A stretch of DNA of 64,000 nucleotides from Xanthobacter autotrophicus (GTDB lineage: Bacteria > Pseudomonadota > Alphaproteobacteria > Rhizobiales > Xanthobacteraceae). Shown piece after piece: positions 10,999-17,548 of the stretch. The position numbers and the translations under genes are program-made. Location of the stretch: the NCBI RefSeq assembly GCF_005871085.1, contig NZ_VAUP01000037.1, forward strand, positions 186,001-250,000, in the 5' to 3' direction. How positions within the stretch are numbered: position 1 is the stretch's first letter; each line of letters opens with the position of its first letter. The notes below the pieces were generated by a model that was given only the letters and a program-made list of their open reading frames with translations, did no database searches and was not told the origin of the DNA.

Positions 10999-12018
10999 AT
11001 GATGTTGACCCGTCGCACCCTTTTCAAGGCCGGCGCGGCCGGAGCCCTTGCGGGCGGCGTGTTCGCCCCCTTCGTCGCGCGGGCGCAGAGCGCGGAATTC
11101 TCCTACAAGTACGCCAACAACCTGCCGGTCACGCACCCCATGAACGTGCGCGCGGGCGAGATGGCGGACAAGATCAAGGCCGAAACCCAGGGCCGCGTCG
11201 AGATCAAGGTGTTTCCCTCCAGCCAGCTCGGTGGCGACACCGACATGCTGAGCCAGCTGCGCTCGGGCGGCATCGAGTTCTTCACCCTCTCCCCGCTCAT
11301 CCTCTCCACCCTGATCCCGAACGCCTCGGTGAGCGGCATCGGCTTCGCCTTCCCGGACTACGCCACCGTGTGGAAGGCCATGGACGGCGATCTCGGCGCC
11401 TATGTGCGCGGCCAGATCTCCAAGGCCGGCATCATCGCCATGGACAAGATCTGGGACAACGGCTTCCGCCAGATCACCACCTCCACAAAGCCCATCGAGA
11501 CCGCCGCAGACCTCAAGGGCCTGAAGATCCGCGTGCCGGTGTCGCCGCTGTGGACCTCCATGTTCCGGGCCTTCGACAGCGCCCCCGCGAGCCTCAACTT
11601 CGCCGAGGTCTACACCGCGCTCCAGACCCGCACCGTGGACGCGCAGGAAAACCCGCTCGCCATCATCGCCACGGCGAAGCTCTACGAGGTGCAGAAATAC
11701 TGCTCCATCACCAACCACATGTGGGACGGCTTCTGGTTCCTGGCCAACCGCCGCGCCTTCGAGCGCCTGCCGGACGATTTGCGCGCCATCGTGGCGAAGA
11801 ACATCAACGCCGCCGGCCTCATGGAGCGCGAGGACGTGCTGGTGCTCAACGGCAACCTGCGCAAGGAGCTGAGCGAAAAGGGCCTCGCCTTCAACGAGCC
11901 CAAGGTGGACAGTTTCCGCGACCAGCTGCGCAAGGCCGGCTTCTATGCCGAGTGGAAGGGCAAGTTCGGCGACGAGGCGTGGACCATCCTCGAGAGTTAC
12001 ACCGGCAAGCTGTCCTGA
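10999..12018 (+). CDS. TRAP transporter substrate-binding protein DctP
   Basis: Periplasmic solute receptor of 339 aa for a TRAP carboxylate transporter. The start at 10999 is set by AGGAGG about 10 nt upstream. The N-terminus is a twin-arginine-like signal (TRRTLFKAGAAG, cleavage after FVARA at about residue 27). The DctP family pattern follows: SSQLGGDTDMLSQLRSGGIEF near 75-95 and LKGLKIRVP with the ligand-carboxylate Arg near 165-170. Genes for the membrane parts follow in the same direction. The dicarboxylate-versus-aromatic ligand choice cannot be read here. Confidence 0.93.
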   Translation: MMLTRRTLFKAGAAGALAGGVFAPFVARAQSAEFSYKYANNLPVTHPMNVRAGEMADKIKAETQGRVEIKVFPSSQLGGDTDMLSQLRSGGIEFFTLSPLILSTLIPNASVSGIGFAFPDYATVWKAMDGDLGAYVRGQISKAGIIAMDKIWDNGFRQITTSTKPIETAADLKGLKIRVPVSPLWTSMFRAFDSAPASLNFAEVYTALQTRTVDAQENPLAIIATAKLYEVQKYCSITNHMWDGFWFLANRRAFERLPDDLRAIVAKNINAAGLMEREDVLVLNGNLRKELSEKGLAFNEPKVDSFRDQLRKAGFYAEWKGKFGDEAWTILESYTGKLS

Positions 12019-12022
12019 AGGC

Positions 12023-12048
12023 GGCGGCCCTTCTCCCCAAGGGCCGCC
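12023..12048 (+). other. Hairpin between dctP and dctQM
   Basis: GGCGGCCC and GGGCCGCC form an 8-bp GC stem around a 10-nt loop, 5 nt after the dctP stop. There is no T-run. It may stabilise the dctP transcript or partly attenuate the downstream permease gene, a common way to make more binding protein than permease. Confidence 0.4.
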
Positions 12049-12220
12049 CGACCCCGTCCAAGGCCTCCCCCGGACCCTGGATCCCCCAAACCGCGGCGGC
12101 TGAGTGGACGCCCGGGGCCAATCGGGGCAAGACATCCCAGCATCACGCGCAGAAACGCACGCCGCCGGGGCGATCCAGGGCGGACGCGCGCCCTTTGAAT
12201 ACCGTAACGGAACCCGCGCC

Positions 12221-14080
12221 ATGGCCTCCGCCGACGACCTCCTGCCCCTCGCTGCCGGGACCGACGCGCGTCGCGTCGGCTCGCGCTTCATGCGTCCGGT
12301 GGAGGCCCTCGCCGCGGTGCTGCTCGTGGTGGTGGTCGGCCTGCTGCTGGCCGGCGCGCTCTCGCGCTATCTGCTGGCGCTGCCCATCATCTGGGGCGAC
12401 GAGGTCGCCTCCATCTGCTTCATCTGGCTCGCCATGCTGGGCTCGGTCATCGCCATCGACCGCAACGAGCACCTGCGCCTGACCCTGTTTCTCGGCCTGC
12501 TGCCGCGCGATGCGCGGCGCTTCGTGGATACGCTGGCGCTGCTGCTGGTCGCGGCCCTGCTGCTGGCGCTGGCCTATCCCGCCTACGACTATGCGTCAGA
12601 GGAGAGCTTCATCACCCTGCCCGCTCTCGGCATTCCCGGCAGCGTGCGTGCCGCCGCCCTGCCGGTGGGCATCTGCGCCATGGCGGCGCTGGCCGTGGCC
12701 TCGGCGGTCAGACGCTCCACGGTGCGCGACCTTGCCGTCGCGCTCGGCGTCATCGCCCTGGTGGTGGCGGCGCTGTGGATCGCAAGCCCGGCCCTGATGA
12801 AGGCCGGCAACGCGGCCATCGTCATCTGCCTCGTGGGCTTCGTGGTGGTGGCGCTGGCCGCCGGCGTGCCCATCGCCTTCTGCTTCGGCATCGGCACCGC
12901 CTCCTATCTCGCCTTCGCCACCCGCGTGCCGCTCATCGTGATGATCGGGCGCATGGACGAGGGCATGTCCAGCCTCATCCTCCTGTCGGTTCCGGTGTTC
13001 GTGCTGCTCGGCTGCATCCTCGATCACACCGGCATGGGCAAGGCGATCGTGGATTTCCTCGCCTCCCTGCTTGGCCATGTGAAGGCCGGCATGTCCTATG
13101 TGCTGCTCGGCTCGCTGTTCGTGGTTTCTGGCATTTCCGGCTCCAAAGTCTCCGACATGGCAACCGTGGCCCCGGCCCTGTTCCCGGAGATGAAGCGGCG
13201 CGGCCATAAGCCGAGGGAGATGATCGCTCTGCTCGCCACCGGCGCCGCCATGGCCGATACGGTGCCCCCCTCCATCGTGCTGATCGTGCTGGGCTCGGTG
13301 GCGGGCGTGTCCATCGCGGCCCTGTTCACCTCGGGCTTCGTGGTGGCCATGGTGCTGCTGGCGGTGCTCGCCGCCCTGGCGCGCCTGAAGGCGCGGGACG
13401 AGGACATGACCGGCGTCACCCGCCCCACCGCCGGCGTGATCTGGCGCACCCTTCTGGTGGCCGCGCCGGCGCTGGTGCTGCCTTTCCTCATCCGCAGTGC
13501 GGTGTCGGGAGGCGTCGCCACCGCCACCGAGGTATCCACCATCGCCGTGGTCTATGCGCTGTTCGTGGGCATGGTGCTTTATGGCGGCATCTCGGCGCGC
13601 ACCTTCTACCGCATGCTGGTGGAGACGGCGGCCCTCACCGGGGCCATCCTCGTCATCCTCGCCTGCGCGGTGGCCATGGCCTGGGCCATCACCCAGGCGG
13701 GCATCGCCAACGAGCTCGCCAGCCTGATGGCCGCCTTGCCCGGCGGCTGGATCGGCTTCATGGCGGTGAGCATCGTGGTGTTCCTGGTGCTGGGCTGCAT
13801 CCTGGAGGGCCTGCCGGCCATCGTGCTCATGGCGCCGCTGATGTACCCCATCGCCCGCAAGCTCGGGATCAACGACGTGCACTATTCCATGGTCATCGTC
13901 ACGGCCATGAACATCGGGCTGATGACACCGCCCATCGGCATCGGCTTCTTCCTCGCCTGCAAGATCGGCAATGTCTCGCCCGACGAGGCCATCGGCGCCA
14001 TCTGGCCCTATCTGGTCGCGCTGTTCGCCGGGCTGGTGCTGGTGGCGGCGGTGCCGTGGATCTCCATCGGCATGCTGTGA
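12221..14080 (+). CDS. TRAP transporter fused permease (DctQ-DctM)
   Basis: Inner-membrane permease of 619 aa with the small (DctQ) and large (DctM) TRAP subunits on one chain. Residues about 20-185 hold the four-helix DctQ domain (ALSRYLLALPIIWGDEVASICFIW). From about 190 a many-helix DctM domain begins, with PVFVLLGCILDHTGMGKA, the GISGSKVSDMA loop and a mirrored second half (LGCILEGLPAIVLMAPLMYP). The ATG at 12221 fits the start of homologous DctQ domains; the frame is open further upstream but without similarity. Transport is Na+/ion-coupled in this family. It follows dctP by about 200 nt. Confidence 0.93.
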   Translation: MASADDLLPLAAGTDARRVGSRFMRPVEALAAVLLVVVVGLLLAGALSRYLLALPIIWGDEVASICFIWLAMLGSVIAIDRNEHLRLTLFLGLLPRDARRFVDTLALLLVAALLLALAYPAYDYASEESFITLPALGIPGSVRAAALPVGICAMAALAVASAVRRSTVRDLAVALGVIALVVAALWIASPALMKAGNAAIVICLVGFVVVALAAGVPIAFCFGIGTASYLAFATRVPLIVMIGRMDEGMSSLILLSVPVFVLLGCILDHTGMGKAIVDFLASLLGHVKAGMSYVLLGSLFVVSGISGSKVSDMATVAPALFPEMKRRGHKPREMIALLATGAAMADTVPPSIVLIVLGSVAGVSIAALFTSGFVVAMVLLAVLAALARLKARDEDMTGVTRPTAGVIWRTLLVAAPALVLPFLIRSAVSGGVATATEVSTIAVVYALFVGMVLYGGISARTFYRMLVETAALTGAILVILACAVAMAWAITQAGIANELASLMAALPGGWIGFMAVSIVVFLVLGCILEGLPAIVLMAPLMYPIARKLGINDVHYSMVIVTAMNIGLMTPPIGIGFFLACKIGNVSPDEAIGAIWPYLVALFAGLVLVAAVPWISIGML

Positions 14081-14126: not shown

Positions 14127-15101
14127 TCAGGCCGCGGCCTGACAGCGCTCCAGCGCCCAGCGCACCAGCTTGCGCACGTCCGGGTCCGGATCGTCGAAGG
14201 CGGCTTCCAGCGCGGCCACGGCGGCTGGATCGGCGATCTCGCCCAGGGCGGCGGCGGCTTCCTTGCGCACGTTGCTCGAGCCGTGAGCCAGCGCCTCCGC
14301 CACCACCGGAACAGCGGTGCGGGCCTTGAGCTTGCCCAGCGCATTCACCGCCTTGGCCTGCACCTGCCAGCTGTCGTCATTGGCCGCCGCCATCAGCGGA
14401 TCCACCGCCTCCGGCAGCCTGGCCTTGCCGATGGAAAAGGCGGCTTCCTCGCGCACCTGCCAATGGGCATCCTTCAGCCCGGCGACGAGGGCGGGCACGC
14501 CCGGCGTGCCACTGCGCACGAACACCAGGGCCGCCATCACCGCCCGGCGCACCGCCGGCTCGGGATCGGTGGCCGCCAGCAGCAGCGCGGGCAACGCCGC
14601 ATCGGCCTTCAGATAGCCGAGCACGCCCAGCGCCTCGCGCCGCACGGCCATGTCGGAATCGGAAAGCGCCGAAAGCGCCACCGGCATCGCGGCGGGATCC
14701 TGCATGTCGCGCAGGGCCCGGAGCGCTGCGGCACGCACGAAGGCGGCCTGCGGCCCGGCATGCTCCTGCGCCCGCTCGATGAGGCGCGGCGCGGAGCCGG
14801 GCTCCTTCTTGTCGGCGAGGCTCTCGATGGCGGCGAGGCGCACCGCCTCCACCGCATCATCCAGCGCCGCAATCAGGCCGAGGGCGGCGGGAAGGCCGGA
14901 ATGCTCGTCGAGGGCCTTGGCGGCAGCCTCTCGCACGCCGGCGTCCTCGTCCTTCAGGCCGGCGAGCAGCAGCTCCACCGCCTGCGGATCCACGCTCTCG
15001 GCGAGGTTGAGCATGGCGACGCGGCGGATGCCGGGATCGGCGTCGCGGGCGCGCTCCGCCACGGCGTCCATGTCGTCGTCGAAATCATCGAACAGGGCCA
15101 T
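14127..15101 (-). CDS. HEAT-repeat protein (last gene of flavoprotein/ferredoxin operon)
   Basis: Soluble 324-aa protein made almost wholly of about ten HEAT/PBS-lyase-type helical repeats of roughly 30 residues. Examples are DPGIRRVAMLNLAE, DAGVREAAAKAL, DPEPAVRRAVMAAL, DSWQVQAKAVNALGKLK and SSNVRKEAAAALGEIAD. No signal peptide. A good binding site (AGGTGAG) precedes the ATG. It is 8 nt after the ferredoxin gene, so they are cotranscribed. Such repeats usually bind proteins; here it may scaffold or assemble the flavoprotein/ferredoxin pair, which is inference. The last codons form a perfect 22-nt palindrome (14124-14145). Confidence 0.88.
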   Translation of the reverse strand: MALFDDFDDDMDAVAERARDADPGIRRVAMLNLAESVDPQAVELLLAGLKDEDAGVREAAAKALDEHSGLPAALGLIAALDDAVEAVRLAAIESLADKKEPGSAPRLIERAQEHAGPQAAFVRAAALRALRDMQDPAAMPVALSALSDSDMAVRREALGVLGYLKADAALPALLLAATDPEPAVRRAVMAALVFVRSGTPGVPALVAGLKDAHWQVREEAAFSIGKARLPEAVDPLMAAANDDSWQVQAKAVNALGKLKARTAVPVVAEALAHGSSNVRKEAAAALGEIADPAAVAALEAAFDDPDPDVRKLVRWALERCQAAA

Positions 15102-15109
15102 GGCTCACC

Positions 15110-15343
15110 TCAGCGCAGGAGATAGGGGATTTCGACCTTCACCGCCCCGGTGGGGCAGTCCACCTCGCACGGCATGCAATACCAGCACTCGTCATACTTC
15201 ATGTGCGCCTTGCCGGAGGCCGGGTTGATGGCGAGCACGTCGAGGGGGCACACGTCGATGCAGACGCGGCAGCCCTTCTCGGCGATGCATTTCTCGTCGT
15301 CGACCGTGACCGGCACGGAGGTGGGGTGGTTGGCGAATGGCAT
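15110..15343 (-). CDS. Two-cluster [4Fe-4S] ferredoxin, AprB-like
   Basis: Ferredoxin of 77 aa with eight Cys in two sets: C19-x5-C25-x2-C28-x3-C32 and C53-x2-C56-x2-C59-x3-C63. This fits two [4Fe-4S] clusters. The extended first spacing and the ECWYCMPC second motif resemble the beta subunit of adenylylsulfate (APS) reductase, but the AprB C-terminal tail is missing. It lies 34 nt after the flavoprotein gene and 8 nt before the HEAT gene. Likely the electron partner of the flavoprotein. Confidence 0.9.
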   Translation of the reverse strand: MPFANHPTSVPVTVDDEKCIAEKGCRVCIDVCPLDVLAINPASGKAHMKYDECWYCMPCEVDCPTGAVKVEIPYLLR

Positions 15344-15377
15344 GGGGGCAGGCTCCGAATTCTTGAATTCTGTGAGG

Positions 15378-17114
15378 TCACTCGGCGGCCAGCGCCGGGG
15401 TGCGCAGCTGGTGGTAGGCGCCCATCTCCTCCTCGGGGATGTCGACCACGTAAGGGTCCACGGCGCGCTTCTTATGGGCCATGCGACCCATCTCGTCCTT
15501 GTAGAGCAGCGTGTGGCAGAACCAGTTTTCGTTGTCGGTGGCCGGGTGATCCACCCGCCAGTGGTAAAGGCCCCAGCGGCTTTCGGTGCGGTAGAGCGAG
15601 GCGGCGGCGGCCATGTCGGCGCAATCGAGGATGGATTGCAGCTCCAGCGCCCGCATCAATTCATGGGGATCCTTCACGCATAGCGCGTTGAGGTCCTCGC
15701 GGATCTCGGCGAAGCGCGCCTGGGCGATCTTGTACTTGGCCGTAACCTTCGGCGGCTGGAGATAATCATTCACCAGGCGGCGGGTCTTGAACTCCATCTC
15801 GTGGGGGGTCAGGCCATCGTCGCGGCGGGTGGGGGCGAGCACGCGCTCCTGCTCGCGGGCCACATCGGCTTCGTCATAGGCCGGCAGGTCGGTGGAGGCG
15901 CAGTAATCGGCGGCGTCCTGACCGGCGATGCTGCCATTCACGAAGGCGCCGAGCATGTAATTGTGCGGCACGCTTGCCATGTCGCCGGCGGCGTAAAGAC
16001 CATCCACGGTGGTGCGGGCATTCTCGTCCACCCACACGCCCGAGGCCGAATGGCCGGAGCAGAAGCCGATCTCGGAGATGTGCATCTCCACCATCTTCTC
16101 GCGGTAGTTGGTGCCGCGATTTTCGTGGAAGCGCCCGCGCGAGGGCCGCTCGTTGGAGTGCAGGATGGTCTCGATCTCGGAGATGGTCTCCTCGGCGAGA
16201 TGCGTCATGTTGAGGAAGACCGGGCCGTTGCCACTCTGGAGCTCGGAATAGAATTCCTTCATCATCTGGCCGGACCAGTAATCGCACTCGATGAAGCGCT
16301 CACCCTTGTTGTTGGCGGTGTATCCGCCGAACGGACCGGTGACATAGGCGCAGGCCGGGCCGTTGTAATCCTTGATCAAAGGGTTGATCTGGTAGCACTC
16401 GAGGTTCGCGAGGCCCGCGCCCGCATGATAGGCCATGGCATAGCCATCGCCGCAATTGGCCGGGTTCTCATAGGTGCCGAACAGATAGCCGGAGGACGGA
16501 AGGCCGAGCCGCCCGGCGGCGCCGCAGGCGAGGATGACCGACTTGGCGCGCACCACCAGGAATTCCCCGGTGCGGGTGTTCACCCCCATGGCGCCGGCGA
16601 TGCGGCCGTCCGGGGCGTTCAGCAGGCGGGTGGCCATGTAGCGGTTGGTCACCAGCACCTGGTGCTTGCGCAGCTGGCGATAGAGCGCCTTCTTGACGTG
16701 GTGGCCCTCCGGCATGGGCAGCACATAGGTGCCCATGTGATGGACCTTGCGGACATTGTATTCGCCGGAGCCATCCTTCTCGAACTTCACGCCGATGGAA
16801 TCCAGATACTGGATCATCGGGTAGGAGCCGGTGGCATAGGCCATCACCGCCTTCTGGTGGACGATGCCGTCATTGGCGACGGTGATCTCCTTCACATATT
16901 GCTCGGGGGTGGCGTAGCCGGGGATGACGGCGTTGTTCAGCCCGTCCATGCCCATGGAGACCGCGCCGGAGCGCTTCACATTGGCCTTCTCCATCAGCAC
17001 GACCTTGAGGCCGGGATTCTTCTCCTTGGCCTTGATGGCGGCCATGGGGCCACCAGTGCCGCCGCCGATGACGAGGATGTCGGTTTCGACGATCTCGGTC
17101 TTGATCTCGCTCAT
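15378..17114 (-). CDS. AprA/fumarate-reductase-like flavoprotein
   Basis: FAD-dependent oxidoreductase of 578 aa in the fumarate reductase/succinate dehydrogenase/APS-reductase alpha superfamily. The FAD dinucleotide motif is ILVIGGGTGGPMAA (about 13-26). The RSGAVSMGMDGLN segment (48-60) is closer to AprA than to SdhA/FrdA. AAGDMASVPHN near 415 and a Glu/Arg-rich C-terminal helical domain follow. The start at 17114 gives an ATGA overlap with the upstream DUF971 gene. The frame stays open upstream without family similarity. Substrate unknown; no sulfate-reduction or sulfur-oxidation genes are nearby. The operon is DUF971, this gene, ferredoxin, HEAT. Confidence 0.9.
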   Translation of the reverse strand: MSEIKTEIVETDILVIGGGTGGPMAAIKAKEKNPGLKVVLMEKANVKRSGAVSMGMDGLNNAVIPGYATPEQYVKEITVANDGIVHQKAVMAYATGSYPMIQYLDSIGVKFEKDGSGEYNVRKVHHMGTYVLPMPEGHHVKKALYRQLRKHQVLVTNRYMATRLLNAPDGRIAGAMGVNTRTGEFLVVRAKSVILACGAAGRLGLPSSGYLFGTYENPANCGDGYAMAYHAGAGLANLECYQINPLIKDYNGPACAYVTGPFGGYTANNKGERFIECDYWSGQMMKEFYSELQSGNGPVFLNMTHLAEETISEIETILHSNERPSRGRFHENRGTNYREKMVEMHISEIGFCSGHSASGVWVDENARTTVDGLYAAGDMASVPHNYMLGAFVNGSIAGQDAADYCASTDLPAYDEADVAREQERVLAPTRRDDGLTPHEMEFKTRRLVNDYLQPPKVTAKYKIAQARFAEIREDLNALCVKDPHELMRALELQSILDCADMAAAASLYRTESRWGLYHWRVDHPATDNENWFCHTLLYKDEMGRMAHKKRAVDPYVVDIPEEEMGAYHQLRTPALAAE

Positions 17115-17548
17115 GGTTTTACCTCTGGAAGGTCGGGGCCGGCCGCTTCCGCCGCGAGGGCGGCGAGATAGGCGAAGGGATAGACCCCGCGCGCATGGCC
17201 GTCGGAGAAGGATAAATTGAGCCCGTGCGCCCCGAACGGGGCCACATGGGTGAGGGTGACGCCGGCAAAGTCGGCGGAAAACGTTCCCCGCGCCCGATCG
17301 GCGACGCAGGCCGCGCAGCGGCAAGCGGCGCGGAGGGTGGGGGCGCTGAGGGCGGTGCGGACAGCCGGAGTGCTGAGAGCGGCGCGCAGCGCTGGAACGC
17401 CGAGACTGGGGTGCTGCGCCGGGTCCACCTCCGGCCCGCCGGCAAAGGCGAGGTGGAGGTGACGCCGATCGCGATCGAGGCGGATTTCCTCGATATCGGG
17501 AAAAGGCTCCGACGGCGCCGGAAGGGGCTTGGGGGCAGACGTCATCAT
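17111..17548 (-). CDS. DUF971 (GBBH-like N-terminal domain) protein
   Basis: Small protein of 145 aa with the DUF971 pattern: strand IEEIRLDRDRRHLHLAF, then LRAACRCAACV with Cys76, Cys78 and Cys81, and a final FSDGHARGVYPFAYL. The same domain is found at the start of gamma-butyrobetaine hydroxylases and, in plants, at the end of the Fe-S carrier HCF101, so an Fe-S/metal role is plausible. An Ala/Leu-rich insert just before the Cys motif looks like three short tandem units (ALRAALSTP, AVRTALSAP, TLRAACR). Two adjacent ATGs (17548, 17545) are possible. The stop overlaps the flavoprotein start. Confidence 0.82.
   Translation of the reverse strand: MMTSAPKPLPAPSEPFPDIEEIRLDRDRRHLHLAFAGGPEVDPAQHPSLGVPALRAALSTPAVRTALSAPTLRAACRCAACVADRARGTFSADFAGVTLTHVAPFGAHGLNLSFSDGHARGVYPFAYLAALAAEAAGPDLPEVKP

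Follow-up and report, generated by a model that had tools for sequence, protein, structure and literature searches.

What does a four-gene locus of Xanthobacter autotrophicus do, when its central flavoprotein carries the database name "fumarate reductase/succinate dehydrogenase flavoprotein subunit" and sits beside a small ferredoxin? The locus lies within a stretch of 64,000 nucleotides (nt) of contig NZ_VAUP01000037.1 (positions 186,001 to 250,000 of its forward strand), hereafter the window. Its four genes, all on the minus strand, encode in order a DUF971 (GBBH-like_N) protein of 145 amino acids (aa) (17111..17548; PF06155, 53.7 bits against a gathering cut-off of 22.8), a flavin adenine dinucleotide (FAD) flavoprotein of 578 aa (15378..17114), an eight-cysteine ferredoxin subunit of 77 aa for two [4Fe-4S] clusters (15110..15343; Fer4_7) and a HEAT-repeat protein of 324 aa (14127..15101; HEAT_2). 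The DUF971 and flavoprotein open reading frames (ORFs) overlap at ATGA and are followed by gaps of 34 nt and 8 nt, exactly as the original prediction, made from the letters alone, had described. The GGGTGG motif and the eight-cysteine ferredoxin that it had noted are likewise found in the translated ORFs: the flavoprotein, with the Pfam domains FAD_binding_2 and Succ_DH_flav_C, carries GGGTGG and RSGAVSMGMDGLN at its N-terminus, and the cluster cysteines of the ferredoxin are residues 19, 25, 28, 32 and 53, 56, 59, 63. A promoter and terminator scan gave nothing informative. The answer that we tentatively favour, with a little less than an even chance of being right, is that these proteins would form an enzyme resembling AprAB and the reductase of 3'-phosphoadenosine 5'-phosphosulfate (PAPS), built of FAD, two [4Fe-4S] clusters and a HEAT subunit, which reduces an imported -SO3 compound and frees sulfite; the flavoprotein would be its catalytic subunit.

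The flavoprotein qualifies as a full member of the family NF006131 (PRK08275), with 1075.8 bits against a cut-off of 587 over residues 3-574 of the 577-position model. Its next best match was NF010374 (PRK13800), an 898-position model of a natural fusion between flavoprotein and HEAT. The models of the better-known relatives stayed under their cut-offs, with 156.3 bits (cut-off 641.75) for AprA (TIGR02061), 296.1 bits (557) for the flavin PAPS reductase (NF005331) and 162.2 bits (567.3) for SdhA/FrdA (TIGR01812). By sequence, profile and fold alike, the best match in the PDB was the alpha subunit of PAPS reductase, 8a8o, with 28% identity in Foldseek. Among the best 80 of at least 598 candidates, the closest named relative was the flavoprotein of X. 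oligotrophicus (locus L001), 99% identical. No study of the NF006131 family was found in the literature searched, which consisted of open-licence papers, covered in part. The database label is probably a mislabelling, a guess made at the level of the superfamily.

A tree of 33 rows, 17 of them from the NF006131 family, placed the family, AprA and a PAPS reductase (PAPSR)-like row on one side of a branch supported at 98/93, and the SdhA, NadB, Frd-like and AsfA-like rows on the other. The four AprA rows formed their own clade (100/99-100/100), the PAPSR-like row joined them at 100/100, and all 17 family rows fell outside; as one clade, the family had a support of just 79/89. For this tree the Tsukamurella fusion described below was trimmed to its first 570 residues, six rows (L132, L127, L128, L157, L083 and L131) were left out, and a long-branch warning applies to the TcuA, PAPSR-like, FrdA-like and other rows.

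We compared 14 AprA positions, picked by ourselves near the site of adenosine 5'-phosphosulfate (APS), a fifteenth (48) having failed to align, and 12 of the 14 differ in the NF006131 family. Apart from Q145, we take these positions, including His398, to be APS-site or catalytic residues. In A. fulgidus AprA numbering, R265 is replaced by L, W234 by Y, Y235 by E, Y95 by E and G274 by C in all 17 family rows, E141 by K (10 rows) or R (7), and Q145, whose role in AprA is given in the available text of PMC10322725, by H (13 rows) or R (4). Kept throughout the 17 rows are N74 and D268; the histidine of the GH motif is kept too. The family has invariant motifs of its own, Y215-E216-N217, E239-C240-x-Q-I-N-P-L, K248-D-Y-N-G-P-x-C255 and C352-x-G-H355, and by alignment N60, H125, Y215-E216-N217 and H355 are invariant on the substrate side. 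On model scores, tree and residues, the flavoprotein is not an AprA, SdhA, FrdA or NadB. It neither nests within AprA nor keeps the APS residues, and the earlier view of a redox enzyme apart from AprA is borne out.

The ferredoxin scored 27.8 bits with the AprB model TIGR02060 (cut-off 135.65) and, at 77 aa, has no AprB tail; its eight-cysteine pattern recurs in 61 of 64 clustered ferredoxin relatives. The HEAT protein aligns with positions 656-896 of the fusion model NF010374, and Actinobacteria do fuse flavoprotein and HEAT: in a Tsukamurella plasmid protein (L088), the first 570 residues share 58% identity with the window flavoprotein, and the C-terminal part resembles HEAT (34% over 170 residues). 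Because of this fusion, we read the HEAT protein as a third subunit of the enzyme, in place of the assembly scaffold proposed originally. The DUF971 protein has the CxCxxC motif CRCAAC, and 58 of 71 clustered DUF971 neighbours have CxCxxC. In the three cyanobacterial plasmid loci opened (of four), DUF971 is replaced by an Mrp/NBP35 Fe-S carrier, placed after HEAT. The idea that this Mrp is an HCF101-like fusion with DUF971 was dropped, since neither of the two Mrp proteins that were scanned contains PF06155. DUF971, or Mrp in its place, may serve as loader of the Fe-S clusters.

We next asked which genes accompany the flavoprotein elsewhere. Neighbourhoods were searched by tblastn at 1e-6, so that paralogues are possible for the larger families, in 95 loci made up of the 80 named relatives, which are biased towards close relatives (at least 69% identity), and 15 plasmid regions; 16 of 55 plasmid records were opened, and one (H52, Ilyobacter, PAPSR-like) was left out of the count. 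Lineages, 51 in all, are genus or metagenome-assembled genome (MAG) labels typed from record titles. Ferredoxin and HEAT accompany the flavoprotein in 95/95 loci and DUF971 in 77/95, in agreement with the predicted co-occurrence of the four genes. Other orders and phyla retain the set, with a varying gene order, and it is therefore not a product of chance. Further linked genes were a substrate-binding protein (85 loci), ferredoxin-NADP reductase (FNR; 48), YeiH (31), the ferredoxin FdxA (30) and TauE (7). Within the window's genus 10 of 14 genomes have the family, against 0/14 well-known control genomes. The flavoprotein is found in about 5% of the sampled Pseudomonadota species, as well as in Cyanobacteria and Actinobacteria.

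Among 398 Pseudomonadota genomes, the window's own included, the flavoprotein (query, the Cupriavidus pinatubonensis homologue) was found in 21 and the binding protein, searched with a profile built from copies near the flavoprotein, in 20, all within these 21, G324 being the exception. The two genes are close together in 18 genomes and unlinked in two (the window's own, G000, and G028), so that the pairing is not mere neighbourhood. Counted by genus, 10 of 11 share both (hypergeometric p ~3e-16, with kinship between genera ignored).

Several side observations belong to these loci. In Acidithiobacillus caldus and Acinetobacter baumannii, small plasmids of 65 kb and 44 kb, respectively, carry the module (L095, L096). 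Genes for GNAT, HAD, methyltransferase, VOC and amidase (allophanate-hydrolase-like) proteins lie in or beside it in Nostoc and Methylocystis (L097, 10716-13897; L018/L091, downstream of HEAT). The divergent regulator in Pseudanabaena (L087, 5679-7679) is a LysR protein of 666 aa with an extra NMT1-like, that is binding-protein-like, part.

The system extends beyond the four window genes, which the original prediction had not noticed, and its second half is unlinked in its own genome: beside the four genes lies a TRAP transporter but no importer of the linked type. The binding protein was found there at C39:105080-106471 (732.6 bits in the profile search), within a cluster on contig C39 (96000-115000) that reads, in order, Crp, binding protein, permease, ATPase, FdxA, FNR, YeiH and a YeiE-like LysR regulator. 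In Aquabacter (L002) the two halves adjoin, the importer/FNR/FdxA/YeiH set following directly after HEAT. A structure model of the binding protein (mean predicted local distance difference test score, pLDDT, 89.2) gave TauA or SsuA chains at all of Foldseek ranks 1-8, the TauA with 2-aminoethylphosphonate and some of the SsuA with MES or MOPS; the profile match to TauA had an E-value of 3.9e-26. At the level of sequences and genomes, then, the following points are established: the subunit make-up, the AprA/PAPSR kinship, the loss of the residues for APS and for dicarboxylates, the linkage of importer, FNR, FdxA and YeiH, and the fact that importer and flavoprotein occur together.

One link to sulfite is YeiH, described in the available text of PMC12880088 as the main sulfite-resistance factor in Salmonella, where YeiE senses sulfite and switches it on. 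The 30 YeiH matches among 41 relatives of the window correspond to about 1 per 6 Mb, so that 0.26 would be expected by chance across the 1.6 Mb of loci, whereas 31 loci have it. The window's genome has a single YeiH, and this lies in the unlinked C39 cluster. For AprA and PAPSR, the mechanism proposed in the available part of PMC10322725 is that FAD N5 attacks the sulfur and sulfite is released. Since importer fold, YeiH context and AprA/PAPSR kinship agree, we tentatively read the substrate as an -SO3 compound and the product as sulfite.

The following sequence of events may be envisaged. An ATP-binding cassette (ABC) importer with its TauA/SsuA-like binding protein would bring in a sulfonate-type (-SO3) compound. 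Electrons would pass from reduced nicotinamide adenine dinucleotide phosphate (NADPH) through FNR to FdxA, and from there to FAD by way of both clusters in the 77-aa ferredoxin. The reduced flavin would attack the sulfur by its N5, forming a FAD-sulfite adduct and freeing the rest of the molecule in reduced form; sulfite would then leave, with YeiH or TauE protecting the cell. A carbon leaving group would make for hard chemistry, and substrates with S-SO3, N-SO3 or O-SO3 bonds should be easier. That this amounts to an oxygen-independent, NADPH-driven route of reductive desulfonation in aerobic soil bacteria, by an AprA-related FAD/Fe-S/HEAT enzyme, is conceivable from the gene content, if doubtful. 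The genes do belong to a conserved sulfur-linked flavoenzyme system, a variant within the AprA superfamily, for which a likely importer, electron chain and sulfite exit can be named.

A number of observations weigh against the release of sulfite from an imported -SO3 compound. The YeiH loci fall in 12 of the 51 lineages; Bradyrhizobium accounts for 18 of the 31, and several of the remaining hits are weak, near 100-130 bits. YeiH or TauE occurs in just 34/95 loci and 15/51 lineages, with neither in 36/51 lineages over the stretch examined. In the window's genus, YeiH is present without the flavoprotein in 4/14 genomes (G697, G699, G700, G702) and the flavoprotein without YeiH in 1/14 (G698). 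Regulators near the flavoprotein are mostly of Crp (53/95 loci) or GntR (34/95) type, not classical sulfur regulators. In the own cluster, FdxA alone among FdxA, FNR, YeiH, LysR and binding protein passes its NCBIfam cut-off (159.1 against 135), while YeiH scores 199.2 bits against 232.6 (it does pass the Pfam cut-off), FNR 160 against 390 and the YeiE-like LysR 201.4 against 480, in second place behind a selenium-linked LysR model; with most scores under the cut-offs, the gene names hold at the family level. The binding protein has 121.9 bits against the TIGR01728 cut-off of 163.5 and represents a separate subgroup, not SsuA itself.

The enzyme itself adds two further points. Arg265 of AprA is Leu in 17/17 family rows, so the chemistry need not be that of AprA. 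The structure model of the flavoprotein matches the superfamily fold, but its active-site cap has low confidence (pLDDT <50 at residues 199-220 and most of 242-347). Lastly, at E<=0.01 a scan of 26 binding proteins showed a NosL-like C-terminal tail (PF05573) in 12 (e.g. L003, L009, L087), with the solved NosL 7og7 matching weakly at the same tail (profile E 0.02), and SCO1 and PCuAC occur in 7/95 and 5/95 loci. The binding protein of the window's own genome gave no NosL match at E<=0.01. Tail and neighbours hint at copper or thiols, which sulfite release does not explain, and the substrate may be thiol- or copper-bound.

The first alternative takes the complex for an electron-transfer accessory that feeds an oxygenase or other desulfonating enzyme. 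AsfA/AsfB are described in this way, as a reductase/ferredoxin electron chain for the use of aromatic sulfonates, in the accessible parts of PMC4267179 and PMC2864759, and genes for an LLM monooxygenase or SfnB-like protein do lie near some loci (Cupriavidus L085, Sinorhizobium L092). However, no regular oxygenase appeared among the annotated neighbour clusters, some small clusters being unannotated, and the NtaA/DmoA-type cluster comprised just 5 loci; moreover, the invariant substrate-side residues would be needless for mere electron relay. We hold this role to be unlikely.

About as unlikely in our estimation is that the importer carries another small anion, or an organometal or copper complex, in place of an -SO3 compound, with the sulfite link secondary. 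TauA also binds 2-aminoethylphosphonate (6ssy), its class includes binders of nitrate, bicarbonate and pyrimidine, the NosL-like tails and copper-type neighbours reported above would find a place, and the permease and ATPase of the Cupriavidus locus L085 also match SaoP/SaoA, below cut-off. Yet the own cluster holds YeiH and a YeiE-like regulator, the closest structures are sulfonate binders, and the kin of the enzyme release sulfite.

Could the enzyme instead run in the reverse direction, oxidising sulfite or adding it to an acceptor as a reversed AprBA would, with YeiH/TauE moving the sulfite? Dissimilatory APS reductases are reversible according to the available text of PMC10322725, and the sulfite-handling neighbours as well as family members in Thiobacillus and Acidithiobacillus are consistent with such a direction. 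We nevertheless consider it improbable, as the NADPH-side FNR and FdxA fit a reduction better, the sulfonate-type importer would be left without a role, and a Thiobacillus MAG with the module also has a true AprA.

That the system is AsfAB itself was a strong lead at first, given the like make-up of flavoprotein, eight-cysteine ferredoxin and sulfonate-type ABC importer. It was weakened by two observations and is now highly improbable. C. metallidurans CH34, a published carrier of asfAB as far as the available text of PMC2864759 goes, is without an NF006131 member and gave three distant matches (27-29% identity), and in the tree the clade of the candidate AsfA falls together with Sdh and NadB (98/93). 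A pair of flavoprotein and eight-cysteine ferredoxin at about 928 kb in CH34 is 64% identical to a second such pair in the window's genome (L084/L158), at about 368-370 kb of contig C16. This candidate asfAB region (about 366-370 kb) stands beside a TauD-like dioxygenase gene and is adjoined by a binding-protein-like gene (C16:366144-366788). Two other candidates, the Frd-like pair L130 and a CH34 TcuAB pair near 793 kb on replicon C4, were set aside in favour of the 928-kb pair, the match to Rmet_4334/5 being unproven for any of them. Given the CH34-like pair on C16, the genome may have both an AsfAB-type and an NF006131 system.

The weakest alternative, a fumarate reductase/succinate dehydrogenase-like enzyme fed by a tripartite ATP-independent periplasmic (TRAP) transporter, has the database name and the adjoining DctP and fused DctQM genes (10999-14080) in its favour, but was rejected and deserves next to no credence, as in the alignment to E. 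coli SdhA the residues Arg286 and His242, which we take to be catalytic, become Gly282 and Asn244, and the SdhA/FrdA model falls short as given above. As tblastn queries at 1e-4, the window TRAP genes found DctQM in 0/80 and DctP in 1/80 relatives, the latter in X. oligotrophicus (L001) alone, where DctQM was not found. With an importer of the linked type on contig C39, the TRAP transporter was rejected as the importer and its neighbourhood is probably incidental. For the substrate, originally given as perhaps sulfur-containing or an organic acid, the sulfur part gains from importer fold, YeiH and YeiE-like genes, and the organic-acid part finds no support, given the replaced dicarboxylate Arg/His and the outcome of the TRAP gene search in the 80 relatives.

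To our knowledge, desulfonating enzymes are oxygenases, lyases or radical enzymes. If sulfite release from an imported -SO3 compound is true, a sulfite-freeing flavin/Fe-S reductase would be a different solution to desulfonation, hidden until now under the label of a fumarate reductase, and the annotation would be corrected for a family present in 21/398 sampled Pseudomonadota genomes. The AprA-type fold, joined by a new HEAT subunit, would in that case have been put to use on a third sulfur substrate. According to the available text of PMC4267179, the major forms in which sulfur occurs in soil are sulfate esters and sulfonates.

Compared with known systems, the window system shares with AsfA/AsfB the flavoprotein-ferredoxin pair and a sulfonate-type ABC importer, whereas its flavoprotein is only 30% identical to the candidate AsfA of its own genome (residues 9-240) and belongs to a separate clade. 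With AprAB (TIGR02061, TIGR02060) it has in common the superfamily, FAD with two [4Fe-4S] clusters, Asn74 and the GH motif; it differs in its clade, in the 12 APS-site positions and in the missing AprB tail. A region of an Ilyobacter plasmid (L099, 6408-11739) encodes an APS kinase, PAPSR-like alpha and beta subunits, CysD and a GTP-binding protein, and seems to represent a flavin-type pathway of PAPS reduction in a bacterium; in contrast to this operon, no ATP sulfurylase or APS kinase was seen beside the window flavoprotein. Both L099 and 8a8o keep Arg265 and Trp234 of AprA, where the NF006131 family has Leu and Tyr. The PAPS reductase of Methanothermococcus thermolithotrophicus (8a8o), as presented in the available part of PMC10322725, is similar in length and likewise combines a FAD-containing alpha subunit with an eight-cysteine, two-cluster ferredoxin, to which the window system adds its HEAT subunit.

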